Of a DNA stretch of 52,584 nucleotides, positions 3,704-31,673 are shown one piece after another. The position numbers were made by a program, and so were the translations under genes. Position 1 is the first letter of the stretch. The number at the start of each line of letters is the position of its first letter. The notes below the pieces were generated by a model that made no database searches, was not told where the DNA came from, and worked only from the letters and a program-made list of their open reading frames with translations. Source of the DNA: a virus; IMG/VR virus record IMGVR_UViG_3300006802_016771, positions 1 through 52,584 of that record. One strand, written 5' to 3'.

Positions 3704-3938
3704 TCTTATTAACAAATAAACATATCTTCGCGCCTTTTGGCAAGTCAGAAATATCAAATATATTTATCGTTAACTCTGGATACATATGCGATAGGTAGTT
3801 CTTTAGTGATTTCTTTCTATTATATATATTGTCTTCCTTATCAAATATCGTGACACTATGTTTCCTTGAACTAGAGAACTTTTGCAAAAGCGTCTCTAGC
3901 TCCCTATATCTTTCCAAGCTTATCGTACTCTCTAACAT
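3690..3938 (-). CDS. Hypothetical protein, 82 aa
   Basis: A short mixed-charge protein with an N-terminal helix-like segment (ISLERYRELETLLQKF) and a C-terminal half that alternates hydrophobic residues. No family recognised. Its start overlaps the 3' end of the methyltransferase gene by 35 nt, so it may be translated by coupling. Confidence 0.5.
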   Translation of the reverse strand: MLESTISLERYRELETLLQKFSSSRKHSVTIFDKEDNIYNRKKSLKNYLSHMYPELTINIFDISDLPKGAKICLFVNKNEDL

Positions 3939-5661
3939 CTTCTTGGTGTAATACTAGTAATTCACTAAATGCTTTAGCTGCAGTCAACCAAACAACACCA
4001 TTGCCAAGCATTCTTAGTCGTTCAATTCTAGTTTCGTGTAACCCGCGGGTAACAACATCAGACTCTCCACCCAATCTGGGTTCAACTTCCTCGTCTTCTC
4101 TTGATTCGCTGCTTGACCGCAGAGTGTGTTCTCCTTCTCTATCCCCCTCTTCTTCGTATTCATCATCAGATTCGATGCATCCAGAGTTCTTGGAGTCGCC
4201 CAAGATTGTCCTTGGTGCTTCCCATGGGTATTGTGGTCTCCCTGGTCTTGCTGGCCATTTGATGACTGGGTGAGTTCCTTCAATATTGATTCTGTATTCT
4301 CCGTCAACTCTTCTGCTACTCGGGAAGCCTTCATCATATATTCTGGCGAGTGCAAGGCAGTGCTCTGTTTCACCGCAATTCTCAAGGGTTTGTGTAGGTT
4401 GATGCCCTCCTTCTCCTTCCTTGCCTTCCTCTTCTCCCAAGTTTCCATAGACTCCGTTAGGTGATCCGATACTATTGGTGTTGGCCATTTCTCCATCGCA
4501 TTTACAGCTTCTCCTAGCTTCGCGCCAAATACTTCCCCCGACCTCTCTCTCTTCATACGAAATCCTCCAGGGGTAATCTCCGCCGCATTGGGGGCATCGC
4601 CCGTGTCCGACGCTCTCGTCGTTGGCCATAGCTCTGGTATCACTTCCTCCCGCAAGTTCTTGCATCCCCCCTTCTTCTTCGCTTCCTCTAGTTTCTCCAC
4701 ACTCCGAGGTGGCAAAACATCCATCGTTGAGGGGGTAGCCCATTGTTTGTCGAATGCATCCTTCAATTGTTGATTGGCTTCTTTGCTCGCCTCCTTGTAA
4801 GCTTTGACCATCTCTGGGTCTATCTGCTCCCTCAAGTTGCTCGGCTTCTGCCTGTTCTTCCTGTGACCATTCGTAGCCTGTGCCTTCATCGCCTCGTAAC
4901 TCCGACTCGGTAAGTAATCCATTGTGTTGGGTGTTGCCCAGCTCTCCCCCATCCCCTTCTCCACATCTCTCAGTTGAGTCCTGTGCGCTTCCCTCGTCGG
5001 GTCTGCCGCTCCATTCATGTCCGAGACTTGCGGGGTCGGCCAAGTATCCCGTTGTAAGGGCTCTGAACTTGAGTTCATCAATATCGATCCATCCTTGATT
5101 GCCTCGCTTGAATTGATCCCAGGGGGCACTCCGAGGGTCTGATCTAAATGAGAGCGAAAAGATTCGCTTGCGGAGATGTGGCGCACCAACCTCGAACGCA
5201 GAGTATATTCCTCCCTTAACCATGAAACCATCCTCTGCCAAGTCGCTGACAACTGTGTCGAGTCCAAGCGAGACGTGCCCGTCGACGTTTTCTCCGAAGA
5301 ATGCTCTAGCATTACATCCATTAACAACTGCCCTGGTGTATCCCCACATTTTTCCACGCTTCCCCTCCAGTCCCGCTCTATTCCCTGCACTACTAAAGTC
5401 TTGGCATGGATATCCGGCAATGACGAGGTGTACTTTGTCTCGAAAGAGGTGCGCAGGGAATTTGGTAACATCCGTGAAAATAGGGGCTTCATCCATCTCA
5501 CCCCTTTGAATTTTTTGCGCCAAGAGTTCGACTGCATAGGCTTCGATCTCCACATAAGCGACGACTCGCAGGTTTGGTATAACTCTTCGCACTCCGAGGT
5601 CGAGACCTCCGTATCCGCTGAATAAGCTAATGCACGTAACTTCTTTGTCGTAATTATCCAC
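3904..5661 (-). CDS. DNA (cytosine-5) methyltransferase, frame A of a dual-coding gene
   Basis: 585 residues from the GTG. Motifs seen: I LFSGYGGLDLG (13-23), IV GYPCQDFSSAG with catalytic Cys 86, VI FGENVDG (122-128), VIII GAPHLRKRIFSL (159-170), and LGNGVV (552-557) for the C-terminal conserved block. Between VIII and LGNGVV lie about 370 residues, rich in Gly, Glu and Asp, with repeats such as LADPASLGHE, LGNTQHNG, MGYPLNDG, MANDESVG, MANTNSIG and LGDSKNSG. This is where the target-recognition region belongs. The enzyme should methylate phage DNA, probably against host restriction. A second frame (4014-5663) is open through almost the whole gene. The GTG sits 6 nt after AAGGAGG and overlaps the frame-B ATG as ATGTG. 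The longer start at 5715 lacks a Shine-Dalgarno and runs into the upstream gene. Confidence 0.9.
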   Translation of the reverse strand: MDNYDKEVTCISLFSGYGGLDLGVRRVIPNLRVVAYVEIEAYAVELLAQKIQRGEMDEAPIFTDVTKFPAHLFRDKVHLVIAGYPCQDFSSAGNRAGLEGKRGKMWGYTRAVVNGCNARAFFGENVDGHVSLGLDTVVSDLAEDGFMVKGGIYSAFEVGAPHLRKRIFSLSFRSDPRSAPWDQFKRGNQGWIDIDELKFRALTTGYLADPASLGHEWSGRPDEGSAQDSTERCGEGDGGELGNTQHNGLLTESELRGDEGTGYEWSQEEQAEAEQLEGADRPRDGQSLQGGEQRSQSTIEGCIRQTMGYPLNDGCFATSECGETRGSEEEGGMQELAGGSDTRAMANDESVGHGRCPQCGGDYPWRISYEEREVGGSIWREARRSCKCDGEMANTNSIGSPNGVYGNLGEEEGKEGEGGHQPTQTLENCGETEHCLALARIYDEGFPSSRRVDGEYRINIEGTHPVIKWPARPGRPQYPWEAPRTILGDSKNSGCIESDDEYEEEGDREGEHTLRSSSESREDEEVEPRLGGESDVVTRGLHETRIERLRMLGNGVVWLTAAKAFSELLVLHQEDVREYDKLGKI

Positions 5662-5663
5662 AT
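4014..5663 (-). CDS. Frame B of the methyltransferase locus: W-[PA]-T-[PT] repeat protein
   Basis: A 549-codon frame, +1 relative to frame A, nested in the methyltransferase gene. Its ATG follows AAGGAGGAGAA, the best Shine-Dalgarno here. From residue 208 it shows six repeats of W-[PA]-T-[PT]-x3-D (Trp at 208, 242, 308, 346, 393, 488) and, at 527-543, LNPDWVESLMLLPAGYT. From memory, W-P-T-P-x3-D repeats followed by LNPxWVEWLMGFP are found near the C-terminus of many predicted phage cytosine methyltransferases, so this frame looks protein-coding. It stops 6 nt before the frame-A LGNGVV codons. Residues 1-200 carry no motif I recognise and may be non-functional or a different start may be used. 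Alternatives: a +1 frameshift product of frame A, or a relic of an ancestral fusion. Confidence 0.65.
   Translation of the reverse strand: MWIITTKKLRALAYSADTEVSTSECEELYQTCESSLMWRSKPMQSNSWRKKFKGVRWMKPLFSRMLPNSLRTSFETKYTSSLPDIHAKTLVVQGIERDWRGSVEKCGDTPGQLLMDVMLEHSSEKTSTGTSRLDSTQLSATWQRMVSWLREEYTLRSRLVRHISASESFRSHLDQTLGVPPGINSSEAIKDGSILMNSSSEPLQRDTWPTPQVSDMNGAADPTREAHRTQLRDVEKGMGESWATPNTMDYLPSRSYEAMKAQATNGHRKNRQKPSNLREQIDPEMVKAYKEASKEANQQLKDAFDKQWATPSTMDVLPPRSVEKLEEAKKKGGCKNLREEVIPELWPTTRASDTGDAPNAAEITPGGFRMKRERSGEVFGAKLGEAVNAMEKWPTPIVSDHLTESMETWEKRKARKEKEGINLHKPLRIAVKQSTALHSPEYMMKASRVAEELTENTESILKELTQSSNGQQDQGDHNTHGKHQGQSWATPRTLDASNLMMNTKKRGIEKENTLCGQAANQEKTRKLNPDWVESLMLLPAGYTKLELND
4037..4057. 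repeat. 21-bp dispersed repeat, copy 1 (inside methyltransferase)
   Basis: The 21 bp at 4037-4057, with core GTAACCCGCGGGTAAC, are identical to the reverse complement of 34364-34384 just after the capsid gene. The core ACCCGCGGGT is a 10-bp palindrome and is flanked by direct GTAAC repeats. Here it lies in the 3' part of the dual-coding region, near the end of frame B. Confidence 0.7.
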
Positions 5664-5971
5664 TTCTCCTCCTTGAGTTGTAGTCTAAGTTTAGAATATT
5701 GAAACCCTTCAACAAAAAACAGTAATTCTATTGCTCCATCTTTGTCAGATATTGAAGCGGATATTGATGCAGGTGTTTCCCCAAATAATATTTTATCTAT
5801 ATCCCACCCCTTAGTTCTTGCCACCATTTTACACAATTCAAACATCCATTTATGAGCCTGTGGCAAAAAATTATGCCATGCTTTCTCTTTGGCTCTAAAC
5901 GCACATATCATGGGGATTAGTAGTCTTAATTCGGGCCCAGGGGCAGTGTTGTATTCTAAATCACAAATCAT
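5654..5971 (-). CDS. Hypothetical protein, 105 aa
   Basis: No family recognised. The sequence has a hydrophobic N-terminal third (GPELRLLIPMICAF), a Trp-containing helix-like middle and a C-terminal half with an ELLFFVEGFQYSKL segment. It overlaps the upstream gene by 11 nt, and its stop (TAA, 5654-5656) lies just past the ATGTG double start of the methyltransferase locus. Terminating ribosomes could reinitiate there. Confidence 0.55.
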   Translation of the reverse strand: MICDLEYNTAPGPELRLLIPMICAFRAKEKAWHNFLPQAHKWMFELCKMVARTKGWDIDKILFGETPASISASISDKDGAIELLFFVEGFQYSKLRLQLKEEKCG

Positions 5972-6230
5972 TTTCTTTTATTTCTATTTCCTTTATATCC
6001 TTCAGGAAAATTATTCTATCATCACCATCTAAAACGCTCTTGTCAAAGATGCCATCACGGGAAATTGATAGAATATTACCCCTCAAACAATCATAAACTA
6101 CTAGCGTCTCAAAGTTTATGACTTTCTTAATCCAATCATTATTCCATTTTATTTTATCGCTATATACCCTCATAGAGTACACAGTACCATTGAGGTCTCC
6201 CATATAGTTTCCATTATTGAATAATCTCAT
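5961..6230 (-). CDS. Hypothetical protein, 89 aa
   Basis: Mixed beta-like composition (GTVYSMRVYSDKIKWNNDWI, LVVYDCLRGNILSI), no family recognised. It is the first gene after a 159-nt gap with inverted repeats and has no clear Shine-Dalgarno. It overlaps the next gene by 11 nt. Confidence 0.55.
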   Translation of the reverse strand: MRLFNNGNYMGDLNGTVYSMRVYSDKIKWNNDWIKKVINFETLVVYDCLRGNILSISRDGIFDKSVLDGDDRIIFLKDIKEIEIKENDL

Positions 6231-6389: not shown

Positions 6390-8384
6390 TCATACCTCTA
6401 TAATAATCTTCTCAGGTTTACGAACCATTGTTCTTCTCCCTGGAGAGGATTCCTTTTCAATTCTAAGTTCTTTAACAGCCGCAGAAATCTGTCTCTTGAC
6501 TGTTGTAGCAGAGTGTCCTTGCTCAACCATCTTATTAACCAAATCCTGTTGCGGTAGCCATTCGCCTTTCTTTAGCTTTGATAGATATTCTATTGCATCA
6601 GGTATGCAATCGTCTGCCTGTGGTCTACCGCCTGGTCTTTTCAACTTCTGTGGGTCTAGCTCGTCAACTCTTTCAAACAAAGGGAATTTCATCTTCACAA
6701 CAAAAGGCTCAGGCGTTTCAAAGTTTCGCACTGTTGCATCCACGGTGAAACACCCGTGTTCTTCATGCTCGGTCATAACAAGAATAGTATCAGGTGATCT
6801 AGCGAAAACACCACTGCCTGAAATTCTATCAATTGGAGACTTGGCTGCTTGATTTCCCTTTGAGAAGTGTGTAGCGAAAACTACCGCGGCACCTGTCTCT
6901 AGAGCTAGATGCTCCATTTCATTCATAAGCGAATTGATATCACCCGCGGCATTTTCGTCACGATTACCTAATGTCTTATAGATAGGATCAAGTATAACCA
7001 TGGCAAAATTAGCATTCGCCATCACTCTAGTAAACTTTGGTCTAATGTTTTCCAAAGCTTGAGCCCGACCTCTCAAATTCCATATGTATAAATTGTCAGA
7101 TGGTATATCTATACCCTTAGCATCACATATGCTCTTAACTCTCTCCCTCATGTAATACTCAGGAATCTCAAAGTTTATGTATAAACATTTACCTTGAGTT
7201 GTATTCATGCCCCAAAATGGCACACCATTAGCAGTGGAGATAGCCATATCTAAGAGTGACCAACTTTTATAAGTTTTAGAGCTACCACCAATAACTAATG
7301 ATAACTGCCTATGCAGTAAGCCCTCAATTATCTCGGGAGGCTCAGACAAATCTTCGTTATAAAACTCCTCTTGGGTTTGTATCTCAGGGAACTTATCAGT
7401 TATATGAGACTCCCAATCTTTCCATGACTTTGAGCCAATATTCGTAGCCAAAAGAGTTTGTGCTTTCCCCGTGTCACCTCTCGTGCAACCAGGTAATCTA
7501 GATAATCTTGATGGGTCGCTATTTTGCGTATCTACATCATACTCACTAAAGTGATCAAATAATAAAGCCACCCGCTCATCATATTGCTTTTGATCCCGAG
7601 CATTAACTCTGACGATGGCATGAAGCGACTTATTTCCGCTGTAGCAAACTGCTGCACAAGGTATCTTGCTTTTCTTTATTAACTGCCATTGTTGCTTTAA
7701 TGAAATTGTATCAAATTCAACAAGAGCATGATCATAACGCTGTATATTGTGTCGCTTGCGACCTTCCTTTACTTCCCTTAGTGGATTAATGGAGAAATAT
7801 AAACCTTGGTTAATTTTCCCATTCTTATCACTTGCCGAAAATATCTCTGTTACATCACCACCCTTGGATTCTATCCTCTTTGTCCATTCCTCGCATTTGA
7901 GTATGGGCATTGCACCAACGGGAGACTCACCTCCATTTTCATTTCTCTTAGCTACAACTATTTGTATTTTATCTTCTGGCGAAAATAATGCATTAAGGAA
8001 ATTAATAGTTGGATTCTCTAAAGGCTCTGGTATTTCATCAGCTTCATCCAAAGCATATATAACAGGCTCTTTCTCCTCTATTGGTTGTTGAAACTGAAAG
8101 TTATAATCTCTTTGTACACGCATCGGTCTGTCCATTGTGCGACCATGACCTATTTCATCTCTAGGCGGTCTTGATAAAACTGACTTTATAGTAGCATTTA
8201 TCTCCGCCTCTCTTAATCCATCTAAAGCGCCACGTCTATGTAACACTTCAAACATTCTTTGTGGCTCCCACTTTGCATCACGCAACTGGCAAGCCGCATC
8301 CATTAATGCACCATTCCGTTGACCTTCGGGTGCTCCATATTTTAAATATTCCTCCGTCTTTTGGGGGATTCTTCCATAATCCAT
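6390..8384 (-). CDS. Primase-helicase (prim-pol plus RepA/RecA-like ATPase)
   Basis: 664 residues from the ATG at 8384 (MDYGRIPQ), which overlaps the resolvase stop as TAATG and follows GGAGG by about 7 nt; an upstream in-frame start at 8420 is less likely. Residues about 180-310 look like an archaeo-eukaryotic primase core (HALVEFDTISLKQQW, CYSGNKSLHAIVRVNA, DPSRLSRLPG). Residues about 360-560 are a RecA-fold helicase: Walker A VIGGSSKTYKS, Walker B FAMVILDPIY, then VVFATHFSKG. The C-terminus looks like a winged helix (SATTVKRQISAAVKEL). It should prime and unwind phage DNA. With no phage polymerase visible, it probably recruits the host replisome. Confidence 0.85.
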   Translation of the reverse strand: MDYGRIPQKTEEYLKYGAPEGQRNGALMDAACQLRDAKWEPQRMFEVLHRRGALDGLREAEINATIKSVLSRPPRDEIGHGRTMDRPMRVQRDYNFQFQQPIEEKEPVIYALDEADEIPEPLENPTINFLNALFSPEDKIQIVVAKRNENGGESPVGAMPILKCEEWTKRIESKGGDVTEIFSASDKNGKINQGLYFSINPLREVKEGRKRHNIQRYDHALVEFDTISLKQQWQLIKKSKIPCAAVCYSGNKSLHAIVRVNARDQKQYDERVALLFDHFSEYDVDTQNSDPSRLSRLPGCTRGDTGKAQTLLATNIGSKSWKDWESHITDKFPEIQTQEEFYNEDLSEPPEIIEGLLHRQLSLVIGGSSKTYKSWSLLDMAISTANGVPFWGMNTTQGKCLYINFEIPEYYMRERVKSICDAKGIDIPSDNLYIWNLRGRAQALENIRPKFTRVMANANFAMVILDPIYKTLGNRDENAAGDINSLMNEMEHLALETGAAVVFATHFSKGNQAAKSPIDRISGSGVFARSPDTILVMTEHEEHGCFTVDATVRNFETPEPFVVKMKFPLFERVDELDPQKLKRPGGRPQADDCIPDAIEYLSKLKKGEWLPQQDLVNKMVEQGHSATTVKRQISAAVKELRIEKESSPGRRTMVRKPEKIIIEV

Positions 8385-8839
8385 TATATAACCTCCTGTA
8401 TAGCATAATTTAAGATGCAAAGTGCATCCGCTTGATTATCATCCTTGATATTTTGGCATGGATAGATGCTTTTAGCTGCCTCTATCATTTCTTCCTTACT
8501 AGCATTACCTTTTCCCGTGGCATGTTTCTTAATAGTACCAACAGGCACGCCAGTATGAGGGATACCTGCCTCAGCGCAATATGATGCGACATGAGACAAG
8601 TAACCCCCATATGCATGGGCTGCATCTACACCAAGATGCCTCCTGACTTCCTCAATTACGATTACGTCAGGTGTAACAATTTCAGCTAGTTTAGTTAAGA
8701 ATTTCTTGAACTTGAGGAACTGCATACCATGCCCCTCAAACCTCGATAACTTGAAGTCATTTGTCCCAGAGTCAATAACACCACCACACCTCGTTGCCCA
8801 TCCTAGTTTAGTGCCTAAATCTAGGCAAATTAGGTTCAA
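8384..8839 (-). CDS. RuvC-like Holliday junction resolvase
   Basis: 151 residues with the RNase H-fold acidic residues of RuvC-type enzymes: Asp 7 in CLDLGTKLGWA, Glu 63/64 in VIVIEEVRRH and Asp 133/134/138 in KDDNQADALC. Length matches small phage RuvC relatives. It likely cuts branched replication or recombination DNA before packaging, which fits its place between the RecT-like, nuclease and SSB-like genes and the primase. The start overlaps the upstream gene by 4 nt (ATGA). Confidence 0.85.
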   Translation of the reverse strand: MNLICLDLGTKLGWATRCGGVIDSGTNDFKLSRFEGHGMQFLKFKKFLTKLAEIVTPDVIVIEEVRRHLGVDAAHAYGGYLSHVASYCAEAGIPHTGVPVGTIKKHATGKGNASKEEMIEAAKSIYPCQNIKDDNQADALCILNYAIQEVI

Positions 8840-27064: not shown

Positions 27065-27912
27065 AATGCCCCCGAGAGATCATCTAGGTCCCACGCTGAA
27101 CCTTGTTTTTGTTTATATATCCAAGGATGCCAACCGCCTGCTCCGCTACCCAGGAATGTAACGGTCGTTTTATAAAACTTCTTATCCCCGACATAAATTA
27201 TTTCTCTTGAGTATCCATTAAATAGCCAATCTCCGTTAATTTCAGGTGGTGGTATAAGTTGAGATTTAAGCTTACCTTTCTGGCCTATTTGATCCATTAT
27301 ATCCTCAAGCCAATCCTTTGATGATAATATTGAATAATCATAGGATAATTGACCCACGGTTAAGTAAGACTCAACACCGACCATCATGCACCCCCAGGTC
27401 TTTGGGTCATCTCTCTTTTGACCACACCAGATGGTGTCGGTCTTACCAAAACGAAGAAAAGCACCATCAGCATCGGTGACCCTACCATACCTATTTGGGC
27501 TTGGTCCCGTACCGAATAGTTCCTCATCCTTTTCGGCCCAAGTATCTGGCCTATATTGATAGTTTGGGTGAGTATCTATACCTTCTTCATTCAAAAATAT
27601 ACCCCCTCCCCCCTCGGGGATTTTCTTTGAAATTATCCCCTTGAATAAAACATCAGCATATAAAGCACCCCTAGTTCTACTAATATTTACTGTGTCGCAA
27701 TAAAGGCTTGAGACGAAGGTTTGGTCTATTTGTGAACCTAAATTGTCTTCAATTGGATCGCCTGGTACATATAGCGTACTCTGCCAATTCGTACCAAGTA
27801 AAAACCTCATACTTAATTCATCAAAATTAGTACGAGACAGCTTCAGCTGCGGATTCGGTTGCGCCAAAATTCCAGCGCGACACTTAAATGCATTTAAACC
27901 TGGGTAAGCCAT
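27061..27912 (-). CDS. Distal tail protein, paralogue 2
   Basis: 283 residues, parallel to its downstream neighbour: SPNRYGRVTDADGAFLRFG, MVGVESYLTVGQLSYDYSIL, then a DWLF stretch and FLGSGAGGWHPWIYK. The N-terminal halves differ, with only the NFDELSMRFLLG versus DFDVFTLVKHRA position shared. It probably forms part of the tail tip with its paralogue, but this is from position and similarity only. It starts at an ATG overlapping the tape-measure stop (TAATG). Confidence 0.65.
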   Translation of the reverse strand: MAYPGLNAFKCRAGILAQPNPQLKLSRTNFDELSMRFLLGTNWQSTLYVPGDPIEDNLGSQIDQTFVSSLYCDTVNISRTRGALYADVLFKGIISKKIPEGGGGIFLNEEGIDTHPNYQYRPDTWAEKDEELFGTGPSPNRYGRVTDADGAFLRFGKTDTIWCGQKRDDPKTWGCMMVGVESYLTVGQLSYDYSILSSKDWLEDIMDQIGQKGKLKSQLIPPPEINGDWLFNGYSREIIYVGDKKFYKTTVTFLGSGAGGWHPWIYKQKQGSAWDLDDLSGAL

Positions 27913-30900
27913 TATCTTAATTTAAATCTACCAACATTGGCGGCTTGATCAATCATGGAATCACCAATACCCATGATTCCGTCATTTATTTTTTCGAGCA
28001 TCCTTAATCGTCTTTCCGCTAGAGCTTTCATTGGGTCACTCGAGGTCGCAAAACCTCCCGCTCCTATTCGACGTGCAGAATCAACCGTCATTTGAGTAGT
28101 ACCCATTTTGTTTAATAATGTTGCATCAGCTGCCTGCATGGCTGTTTTCTGTGCTTCATCTTTACCCATCCCAGCCTCTACTGCTTCCCTAAATACTTGC
28201 CTGAATCTTTCATTTCCTTCTATGGCCGCAAGCTCGTTTCTTGCCTTACTATCACCATCTCGTGCCTTAGCCCCAAGATCAGCAGTAACTAAATCCAAAG
28301 CTGCTCCTCGTTTGATTCCATCTTGTCTTGCCTGTCTTTCGGCATCCCTCTTTTCTCTAAATTTATCAAGTGCAGCTTCTGCATCATTTTCTGACAAACC
28401 CGCCGCTTTGGCACGCTCTAGAAACTGACGATCATCCCGAGCATCCTCCATTTCCATTGCGTCTTTGGTTTTGAACTCAAACCTTCCAAGATCATCATTC
28501 TGGAAAGCTGATTCTGCTTCTGCTCTTGTTATGCCTATCTCTAAAGACTCTTCAAGTTCTCTTTTAAATTTTTCTACTCTTTCCGCAAGTTTGCGTAAAG
28601 CGTCCTCTAGGGAAAGAATAGGATCATTTAATTTCATCAGCTCTGCATTTAGATTCGCTATCGCGTCATTTGAGATATTATATGTGTCTCTTGCCGATTT
28701 TAACTCATCATCTAGTTCTTTAACTTTTTGATTGTAGGCTATTAAATCTTCAGTGCTAAAATCTTCTGTGCTCGTTGCTTGTAGGGCATTTCTTGCCGTT
28801 TTAGCACGCTCCATTCTTTGCTCGGCATCATCCCTAGCATCTTTAGTTCTACCCAGTGACTCCAATATTGGTACTCTTTCGACATCCCTCACCTGCTCAG
28901 CTGCATTTAAATCAATTTGAAGGCTTTTTCTTTGAGCCTCAAATTCTTTATCTGGGTCAATTTTTCGTAGCGCCGCTCCCCTTTCTCTCTCAATTCGCAG
29001 GAGTTCAGTAGATCGCACTGTTGTTTCTCCACCTTCTCGGATTCTGTTTCTTATTCTACCAGTTTCTAGAAGATTAGAGTTTATGTCTTCTTTTGCGGTC
29101 TCAAGTGTTTTAATAGATTGATTGATCGTCTCTTTGTCCCTAGGGCTAAAATCATTACCTTCTACTAACTTACTTGATTTTAATGCAGTCAATAAACCAG
29201 CACTAGCACCTTTTTCTATTGCTAAGGCTGCCGCCTTTTCAAGACTTTCAGTTGTTATCTTGCCATCATCATCGCGCAAAGCTTTTATGACGTCGCCATC
29301 TATAGCTCTCCCACCTTTTAGATCCACGCTCAAATTTCGTATTGCGTCCTTAATTTGAGCCAGTATATCTTTTAGCCCATCAATATCACCCGCCTCAATA
29401 GCCTCAGCCGCTCGAGTCCTCAGATCATTAACTTCATCGAAAGCGCCGCTTATCTTTGTTGCTTGATCTGTGTTTAAATCTTTAGTTGGGAGATTATTAT
29501 CCCCTAGATTCTCCAGTGCTTGTCGAAGTTCTTCTATGCGGTTTTGTTGATCCGCCTTTGTTTCAGGTCTCGCAGACAGCCCAATTGTGTTCTCAATAAG
29601 ATCACTAAGCGATTGGCCAAATTCCGCGATTTCTTTTGCTGATTGCAAGGACTCAGTTTCGCTAGTTAATGCTACTCCTTTAGACTCATTAAGTTGAGCC
29701 TGTAGTATATTCTTTAGGGTCTCTATCTGCGTTGAGTTCAATTCCCCCAACTTTGCTATACCACTCTCCAACTCCTCGGTATCTAATCCAAATTCTCCTA
29801 AATCGAGCCCTACTCCACTACTGATGGCAGTTAATGCCTCTCCTTTTTTACTGCTTTCTTCAGCATCTAAACCAACCCTCGCCCTGCCTTCTATTTGTTG
29901 TTGTCTCTGATCTAATAATAAAATCTTTTCAGGCGCGGTTGCCTTTTCCATTTTAAATTCAAACTCTTGATCACTTAAATCTTTCGCTAATGCGACTTGT
30001 CTTTCAAGTTGAGCATTGTGGGCCTTTAATAGCTCTAAGCGCCTAGCATCAACTTGAATTACACTCATATATGTGTCCAGAAGTTGCTGGAGTGAGTTTC
30101 TAGCTTCCTCAAATTCTGCTTCCATGCCTATCTTCCCGCCCATGAGTGTATCGAACGCTGTGAGCTCGCCCATTTGCTTGGCAAATTCCTGGGTTTTTTG
30201 AGTAAGACTTTCTATTTCTGTGGTAATTTTAGAAAGGGAGGAGTCCCTATCATCCATATTTTTCATGGATTTAACCATTTCATCTATCTTATCCCTGGCT
30301 TGCTCATTTGCAGCCGCAAACTCTTTTAAGCGATTAGCTGCTTTTTCTACATTTTCCCTATATTTAGCAAAAGATGCAGCTGCAACAACTACCCAAGTTA
30401 CTGGACTTTTAGCTAATACTGCAAAAGCTGATGCAAAAGCTGCTCTCACCATACCTAAGACCATAGCGATTGCTTTGTATGCACCCACAAGACCAAATCC
30501 TACAAGGGTTTGCAACTTAACCGCAGCTGTGGTGCCAGCCATAGCCGCCGTCATTGCGCGCATTGTTGCTATTATACCCATCCCTGCAGTTTGTTGGCGA
30601 ATTTGGGCTAATGTGAGTGCCTGTGTGAGACCTGTGGTGATCCCTAGTAGCTTATTTAATCCAAACAATGACGCAATCATGCCCGCGAACTGGACACTAA
30701 GTACAGCCGTTGCAAGAGTTAGAAATACACTCGTAATATTCCCGAGAATGTTACCGAGACCTTTGAAGCTACCTAGTGCTTCCGTAGCCTTAAGGCCTAT
30801 ACTAGAAAGTGCTTTACTAACCATTGCCATGTATTCACCAACGGCACTAGCTACTGGCTCTAAAAGATTAAGAGTATTTATTAGTGCCTTAACTTGCATT

Positions 30901-31673
30901 TTCTCAGCCGCGGCAAAATCTTCCGCGAAACCTGCCGCGAATTTGGCTCTTACATCTGCCAATGTGCTTTCCAGTCCGCCTAAGGTTTGGGATAATTGCT
31001 CCATGCCACCCGAGCTGCCCTGTAATGCTTTTTCTAAAATAAACATAGTAGATGAGAAAGCCTCACCAGCGGCTGCACTTTCTTGTAGCTTCCTCCTCAC
31101 CTCCCCTGTGATTAAACCCATTTCCTGGAGTCTTGCAGTGGCTTCACCTATAGGTGCCCCACTCTTAAGGGCATCATATGTGCGACCAATCCAAAAAGCC
31201 ACAGTTTGCATACTCTGACCACTAACTGCTGCTGCATCTCCTACTAATCTTAAAGCCGCTTGTGATGAAAATGCTCCTTTTGTTAAAACCTCTAGGGTTC
31301 TTGATGCTTCAGCTATTTCCGCTAATTGAAAGGGAGTACTTGACGCGAATGTGAAGAGTTCCTCGAGTCTCTTTTTTGCTGCCTCTGCTCCACCTAGTAA
31401 TGGTTGAAATTGTGTCTGTATGAGCTCTAATTGGCGTATCTTTTCAACCCCTTTCGCAACTGCCTCGGTTCTACCTAAAAACAGCTTCATCGCGCCATTC
31501 ATCGCCATCAAGCCTCCAGTTATTAATGAAAGGGGACCAAGAATCTTAGTCGCAAGGATAGTGCCAAGTAAAGACCAAGTAGAAGCAGCCGCGCTCCCCG
31601 TCTCTGCGAAAACCATTGCAGGTTCAACAGCCATCCCCATGGCGTCTTTTAATTTATCCACTCCTGATGCCAT
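27912..31673 (-). CDS. Tape measure protein
   Basis: 1253 residues. The Ala/Gly-rich N-terminal third has hydrophobic helices (WSLLGTILATKILGPLSLIT; IIATMRAMTAAMAGTTAAV) and phage tail-tape motifs such as FASSTPFQLAEIAEASRTLE and GLITGEVRRKL. The rest is long charged helical sequence with many Glu and Arg. It sits right after the assembly-chaperone-like gene. By the usual rule of about 0.15 nm per residue the tail would be near 190 nm, consistent with a siphovirus. It sets tail length and is probably ejected with DNA. The start overlaps the upstream stop (TAATG). Confidence 0.9.
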   Translation of the reverse strand: MASGVDKLKDAMGMAVEPAMVFAETGSAAASTWSLLGTILATKILGPLSLITGGLMAMNGAMKLFLGRTEAVAKGVEKIRQLELIQTQFQPLLGGAEAAKKRLEELFTFASSTPFQLAEIAEASRTLEVLTKGAFSSQAALRLVGDAAAVSGQSMQTVAFWIGRTYDALKSGAPIGEATARLQEMGLITGEVRRKLQESAAAGEAFSSTMFILEKALQGSSGGMEQLSQTLGGLESTLADVRAKFAAGFAEDFAAAEKMQVKALINTLNLLEPVASAVGEYMAMVSKALSSIGLKATEALGSFKGLGNILGNITSVFLTLATAVLSVQFAGMIASLFGLNKLLGITTGLTQALTLAQIRQQTAGMGIIATMRAMTAAMAGTTAAVKLQTLVGFGLVGAYKAIAMVLGMVRAAFASAFAVLAKSPVTWVVVAAASFAKYRENVEKAANRLKEFAAANEQARDKIDEMVKSMKNMDDRDSSLSKITTEIESLTQKTQEFAKQMGELTAFDTLMGGKIGMEAEFEEARNSLQQLLDTYMSVIQVDARRLELLKAHNAQLERQVALAKDLSDQEFEFKMEKATAPEKILLLDQRQQQIEGRARVGLDAEESSKKGEALTAISSGVGLDLGEFGLDTEELESGIAKLGELNSTQIETLKNILQAQLNESKGVALTSETESLQSAKEIAEFGQSLSDLIENTIGLSARPETKADQQNRIEELRQALENLGDNNLPTKDLNTDQATKISGAFDEVNDLRTRAAEAIEAGDIDGLKDILAQIKDAIRNLSVDLKGGRAIDGDVIKALRDDDGKITTESLEKAAALAIEKGASAGLLTALKSSKLVEGNDFSPRDKETINQSIKTLETAKEDINSNLLETGRIRNRIREGGETTVRSTELLRIERERGAALRKIDPDKEFEAQRKSLQIDLNAAEQVRDVERVPILESLGRTKDARDDAEQRMERAKTARNALQATSTEDFSTEDLIAYNQKVKELDDELKSARDTYNISNDAIANLNAELMKLNDPILSLEDALRKLAERVEKFKRELEESLEIGITRAEAESAFQNDDLGRFEFKTKDAMEMEDARDDRQFLERAKAAGLSENDAEAALDKFREKRDAERQARQDGIKRGAALDLVTADLGAKARDGDSKARNELAAIEGNERFRQVFREAVEAGMGKDEAQKTAMQAADATLLNKMGTTQMTVDSARRIGAGGFATSSDPMKALAERRLRMLEKINDGIMGIGDSMIDQAANVGRFKLR

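Follow-up and report, generated by a model that had tools for sequence, protein, structure and literature searches.

Two completely overlapping phage genes that probably encode the two subunits of a split C5-cytosine DNA methyltransferase

In a 52,584-nt stretch of viral DNA (IMG/VR record IMGVR_UViG_3300006802_016771, positions 1 to 52,584; hereafter the window), we found two completely overlapping genes on the minus strand whose products are likely to be two chains, alpha and beta, of one split C5-cytosine DNA methyltransferase. Frame A, the proposed alpha subunit, occupies 3904..5661 (585 aa, stop included), with a GTG start inferred from 114 loci. Frame B, the proposed beta subunit, occupies 4014..5663 (549 aa, ATG start, stop included) in the +1 frame relative to A, and is assigned on the basis of its open frame, its homologues, and shuffle and selection tests. 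The two overlap by 1648 nt, with the gene for the small subunit lying within that for the large subunit. A preliminary description made from the sequence alone had noted the 549 open codons of frame B, from the ATG at 5663 to the stop at 4014, and these are indeed present. It had also limited the overlap to the variable region of the methyltransferase, and here it needs correcting, since the whole of B lies inside the overlap from the start codons on, so that motifs I-VIII of A are covered by B as well.

Judged by its start region, this single stretch would be read in two frames from starts two bases apart, behind one ribosome site of the form (A/G)TGTGG. The upstream sequence is AAGGAGG AGAA ATGTGGATAATTACG, in which the Shine-Dalgarno AAGGAGG (5668..5674, minus strand) would serve both codons of the staggered double start ATGTG (5659..5663, minus strand): B begins at the ATG, and A at the GTG two bases further downstream. 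A Shine-Dalgarno-like motif was seen upstream in 21 of 28 representatives. We found (A/G)TGTGG at the expected place in 114 distinct loci; in 65 of these, no possible A start lies between a stop and the GTG, and in 60 of the 65 the 19 codons that follow hold no further start. For B, the RTG is the earliest possible start in 84 loci. When the loci found through A were thinned to below 70% A identity, leaving 33 representatives, TGTGG was invariant among the 28 that carry it. We believe that A most likely starts at GTG 5661 and not at TTG 5715, the position given in the ORF listing.

A and the next gene (82 aa, ATG at 3938) share 35 nt, the 3' end of A running into the start of its neighbor (window 3904-3938), and the same holds for the homologue in the relative L002. 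A primase/helicase-like gene (6390-8420, minus strand; phrog_2597, 4e-108) lies close upstream of the A/B pair, and a helicase also adjoins the nested pair in phages K1ind2 and Diva. GC content at 4001-6000 is 48%, against about 40% across most of the window, a difference that double coding or horizontal transfer may have left behind. Elsewhere, a 332-codon open frame (30220-31218, plus strand) runs antisense to a 1253-aa tape-measure-like gene (27912-31673), and the portal and tape-measure matches mark the record as one from a tailed phage.

The reading of frame A as a C5-cytosine methyltransferase, already made in the preliminary description, is borne out by a match to PF00145 (E=1.8e-29), by motif columns that are invariant in the alignment and by a fold match to HhaI/HaeIII; the A family profile matches HhaI at 9e-24. 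In addition to a Rossmann-like catalytic domain, the chain contains motif I (SLFSGYGG, 5605..5628), motif IV with the catalytic PCQ (GYPCQDF, 5395..5415) and motif VI (FGENV, 5284..5298), the last two invariant in the alignment, as well as motif VIII with its RxR (GAPHLRKRIF, 5158..5187) and motif X (LGNGVV, 3991..4008), which starts 5 nt past the stop codon of B and is supported by alignment, model and sequence (all minus strand). An AlphaFold2 model of A, built with 51 sequences, gave pLDDT values mostly of 84-94 over residues 1-175 (with dips to 44 around residues 80-100), mostly of 30-50 over residues 176-550 (with 470-489 reaching 59-79), and of 74-95 in the C-terminal motif X helix from about residue 552. 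Because the match of this model to HhaI/HaeIII extends over no more than about 170-180 of some 325 residues, and residues 176-550 are predicted to be disordered, A appears to consist of catalysis plus motif X, without a visible recognition domain. Residues 176-550 (4012..5136, minus strand) are predicted to form a disordered tether from motif VIII to motif X; this part is near-neutral (omegaA about 1) and free of stops, and motif IX was found in A in 0 loci versus 43 in B.

Frame B begins with an N-terminal half (residues 1-165; 5169..5663, minus strand) that overlaps A motifs I-VIII, carries the conserved MWILPK...SLMWRSKP and is supported by stop, start and selection tests. Downstream we located the six W-[PA]-T-[PT]-x3-D repeats and the segment LNPDWVESLMLLPAGYT that had been reported from the sequence, all of them as claimed: WPTPQVSD (5019..5042), WATPNTMD (4917..4940), WATPSTMD (4719..4742), WPTTRASD (4605..4628), WPTPIVSD (4464..4487) and WATPRTLD (4179..4202), followed by the motif IX-like segment itself (4035..4085; all minus strand). 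Repeats of the WATPNTMD type in B and of the GNTQHNGL type in A are the same DNA, as at the second repeat. Among the relatives, the motif IX-like pattern LNPxWVExLM was seen only in frame B (43 loci, versus 0 in A; it matched neither frame in 35 loci), and in an hhalign comparison of the B profile with E. coli Dcm the segment fell on motif IX, RRLTPRECARLMGF, without reaching significance. A PDB search with the B IX-X segment gave no match. Pattern and position thus point to a putative motif IX in B, and the WxTP modules may form the target-recognition region. AlphaFold2 modeled B alone poorly (pLDDT 55, pTM 0.25), which may reflect a dependence of this subunit on its partner; the model had no fold match in the PDB, and PDB and Pfam profile searches with B returned chance matches only. 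The profile phrog_1008, labeled ‘DNA methyltransferase’, matches 59 of 60 B proteins, with a best value of 6e-31. The phrog_1008 profile differs from B in also spanning motif X, which in most loci here is in A, and frame A matches it weakly at profile positions 293-324.

The open state of frame B had been put at a chance of about 3 in 10^12. That it exceeds chance proved correct; the random-sequence null behind the figure was wrong, since the protein and codon usage of A must be kept. We therefore shuffled synonymous codons 2000 times under those constraints. Over motifs I-VIII, the window has no stop in B versus 3.9 expected (zero in 2 of 2000 shuffles), and after these motifs none versus 5.7 expected (0 of 2000). 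With B fixed and A shuffled, the C-terminal part of A has no stop versus 15.6 expected (0 of 2000). Across the 31 of the 33 representatives testable for stops, all diverged, frame B has no stop versus 82.6 expected, whereas the third frame of the same sequences has 255 versus 247.5 expected; the relatives are not independent, and it is this contrast with the third frame that we consider decisive. The N-half shuffle counts of L001 and L005 were left out, as they would include stops upstream of the B start. Homologues in which B is broken while A stays intact were also sought: among the matches listed, all 78 distinct loci found via A alone are free of B stops over motifs I-VIII, leaving no such case (0 of 78).

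Substitutions show which frame is constrained where. Between the window and its 69% relative L002, changes in the first 540 nt concentrate at the third codon position of A (24/18/44 at A positions 1/2/3), and those at nt 900-1620 concentrate at the third position of B (48/43/94). For the wider test we used 25 independent pairs, 21 of which gave data on the N-half and 20 on the C-half. As control we took pseudo-frames in 60 genes that flank the locus in these pairs. Codon structure alone biases ratios of the NN/NS type, so that +1 pseudo-frames already give 0.78 (0.70-0.84), with +2 at 1.37, and the value to compare with is 0.78 and not 1. We relied on NN/NS and the synonymous rate because the SN/SS form draws on some 70 SS sites that are close to saturation. 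In the N-half, NN/NS for B is 0.51 (0.44-0.59), clearly below the control, and A is strongly constrained (NN/SN 0.24), with a synonymous rate of 0.26 versus 0.56 in control genes. By 120-nt windows, NN/NS for B runs 0.37, 0.47, 0.76 and 0.47, with 0.52 in the last 80 nt; the first 120 nt are its most constrained stretch, and the third window (nt 240-360) is indistinguishable from control. In the C-half, B is constrained (omegaB 0.27-0.38) and A near-neutral (omegaA 0.93-1.3), the value of 0.93 (0.84-1.04) for A lying somewhat under its control, which suggests weak constraint at most. Selection is thus partitioned, acting on A over motifs I-VIII and on B over the WxTP repeats, motif IX and most of the N-terminal half. 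This per-frame comparison across homologues had been proposed in the preliminary description, and the functional second product suggested there agrees with both the stop and the substitution tests, by which B is conserved among homologues and subject to purifying selection.

Alignments were needed to find relatives, as viral scans with a single sequence as query yielded no locus for A and just one for B. We found at least 486 IMG/VR stretches with a B relative using the B alignment (486 of 544 candidates) and at least 583 related stretches in a scan driven by A only (583 of 600 candidates). A host-genome scan gave six loci, all on metagenome-assembled bacterial contigs. In INPHARED, window B has one relative, Phage C75C1 (28% over the whole of B), where the annotation has A only. 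Matches to the B family profile include two annotated nested genes, those of K1ind2 (98.3% probability) and Diva (99.6%), and an unannotated one in ABMM1 (99.5%). With the K1ind2 B as query, 220 INPHARED records match, including epsilon15, Bas71 and Bas73, where only A is annotated. The methyltransferase genes of Salmonella phage epsilon15 (L098 867-2036) and E. coli phages Bas71 (L099 1113-1910) and Bas73 (L101 1113-1907) contain unannotated nested +1 frames of 220-348 codons; in Bas71 and Bas73 the start of B is internal. Uncultured phage KT997847 (L088 1033-1869) has a short CDS followed by the B-frame product, annotated as ‘putative cytosine-specific methyltransferase’, and most of its A is unannotated.

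Six relatives (L007, L009, L011, L044, L051 and L061) have motif X in frame B behind motif IX, and in these A stops right after motif VIII. Motif X can thus change frame, with A then closing, which would make these loci a natural experiment on what keeps the overlap open; they fit the idea that the neutral middle of A stays open only so as to reach motif X. At L033 (3001-4239), not counted with these variants, A closes after motif VIII, yet motif X (GTG GAT CGA ... LGNGVV) lies past the B stop; the motif may belong to a third chain, or the sequence may contain an error or the gene be in decay. Mycobacterium phage Babsiella (L089 1489-3336) and Gordonia phage Baddon (L090 1501-2571) have motifs IX and X in the frame of I-VIII, and also an open +1 frame whose repeats are WxTP-like or LPTP; in Babsiella this frame is annotated as gp55. 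These two loci may be remnants or intermediates of the nested arrangement.

We considered whether frame B could be a by-product of base composition and the conserved A protein, and no gene. The A region is unusually GC-rich for the window, and a conserved A sequence forces some similarity in B. Synonymous shuffles preserve both the composition and the A protein yet yield stops, so B is not such a by-product, and C-half conservation is in B and not in A. The stop and substitution tests together refute this reading, to which we give next to no weight. A frame B under no constraint whatever is likewise ruled out by the shuffles and substitution patterns. There is a slim chance that B is real but translated from an internal start, with the 5' part of the frame incidental: the B genes annotated in K1ind2 and Diva have their starts 88 and 184 nt into A, and the window too has candidate internal starts with Shine-Dalgarno-like sequence. 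However, the 5' part of B has zero stops in every relative, the (A/G)TGTGG start is in place, and the lowest NN/NS falls precisely there.

Two further readings accept both frames as functional. A programmed frameshift fusion, raised in the preliminary description, would start in A and shift +1 into B after motif VIII, giving one chain with I-VIII, TRD and IX. The switch of constraint from A to B at about motif VIII would agree with it, and where A stops after VIII and X is in B, a single +1 shift gives a complete enzyme; in mycobacteriophages such as Babsiella, a single frame does carry IX and X along with I-VIII. In most loci, however, motif X is in A beyond the B stop, so that a second shift back would be needed, and A remains open through its neutral middle. 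A frameshift gene needs its second frame only downstream of a conserved shift site, whereas B, from its own conserved start codon on, is already open and under constraint ahead of any shift point, and a short pattern search of the window found no slippery site. The fusion thus fared poorly, and we think it very unlikely. B might instead be a functional protein unrelated to methylation (e.g. an anti-restriction factor), overprinted on a complete methyltransferase; taken alone it has no significant fold or Pfam match, and long overprinted genes of viruses often encode accessory proteins (PMC8227390). Against this, A is predicted to lack a folded recognition domain and is devoid of motif IX, the IX-like segment is in B, as is motif X itself in some loci, and nearly all B members match the phrog_1008 methyltransferase profile, making an unrelated role very improbable in our view.

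Under the preferred reading of two subunits of one methyltransferase, both chains would be translated from one ribosome-binding site at start codons two bases apart, and the common start would hold A and B near equimolar. Alpha would contribute the catalytic Rossmann domain with I-VIII, a long low-constraint tether and the C-terminal motif X helix; beta would contribute an N-terminal helical region, the WxTP modules, taken as the target-recognition region, and motif IX. We infer that the two chains assemble into one active enzyme, with which the phage probably methylates its own DNA against host restriction. A bolder extension, which we hold only tentatively and would rate somewhat short of evenly balanced, is that ATGTG is a stoichiometry device: one ribosome-binding site would load either frame, setting the subunit ratio per mRNA and letting the chains assemble while being made. 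Phages would then share a widespread gene architecture that uses almost all nucleotides of a 1.65 kb gene twice, once for each chain of a single enzyme, and that leaves the recognition part in beta free to diversify under the neutral tether of A.

If the split-enzyme reading is true, frame A cloned alone, or recoded, would give an inactive protein. Relatives are present in phages of E. coli K-12, which makes the idea directly testable. Standard annotation retains just one of the two frames (e.g. in Bas71, Bas73, epsilon15 and C75C1), and many phage methyltransferases have therefore probably been entered as half of an enzyme; a few phages (K1ind2, Diva) have their nested beta gene annotated, but in many others it has been missed. 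To our knowledge, few same-strand overlaps of greater length are known from dsDNA phages for which purifying selection has been demonstrated in each frame. The preliminary description had suggested a new arrangement, which holds in part: a nested second subunit is already known from the bacterial enzyme M.EcoHK31I, and nested genes are annotated in K1ind2 and Diva, and what is new is the full-length overlap of B (1648 nt) with its staggered common start. Also new are the region-by-region selection map of both frames with matched controls, the placing of the recognition region in beta and not alpha that constraint and predicted disorder suggest, the mobility of motif X between frames with A closing when X moves, and the recurrence of the arrangement in hundreds of uncultured-virus stretches, usually half-annotated. 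We found no paper on a nested phage methyltransferase gene in the open-access literature searched.

Closely spaced staggered starts are also a feature of the p69 and replicase genes of turnip yellow mosaic virus. There, p69 (626 aa) overlaps the replicase over a comparable length (PMC8227390), but in an RNA plant virus and with unrelated proteins that are not two halves of one enzyme. Closer to the window are the K1ind2 ‘Mte8-like protein’ and the Diva ‘g49 internal gene’, each a nested +1 gene inside a C5-cytosine methyltransferase; they differ in their internal starts and their length (265 and 234 aa) and are annotated without function. The split C5-methyltransferase M.AquI divides its motifs as I-VIII and IX-X (PMC3404938). 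The six variant loci share this division, with I-VIII in A and IX-X in B, whereas in the window motif X is in A; the B frame of the variant loci also runs through the whole of A. We know of no such overlap for M.AquI. In M.EcoHK31I, the beta subunit is short, has an internal start and is reportedly nested in alpha in another frame. The window beta instead spans all alpha motifs I-VIII and starts 2 nt upstream of alpha. M.EcoHK31I is a two-polypeptide C5-methyltransferase (YGGCCR) with I-VIII and X in its larger subunit, IX in its smaller one, and a recognition domain predicted in alpha (PMC3404938); constraint and predicted disorder would put that of the window in beta. The window likewise has I-VIII and X in the large chain and, by pattern and position, IX in the small one, and from this motif division and layout, its pair very probably works like the M.EcoHK31I kind and is a member of it.
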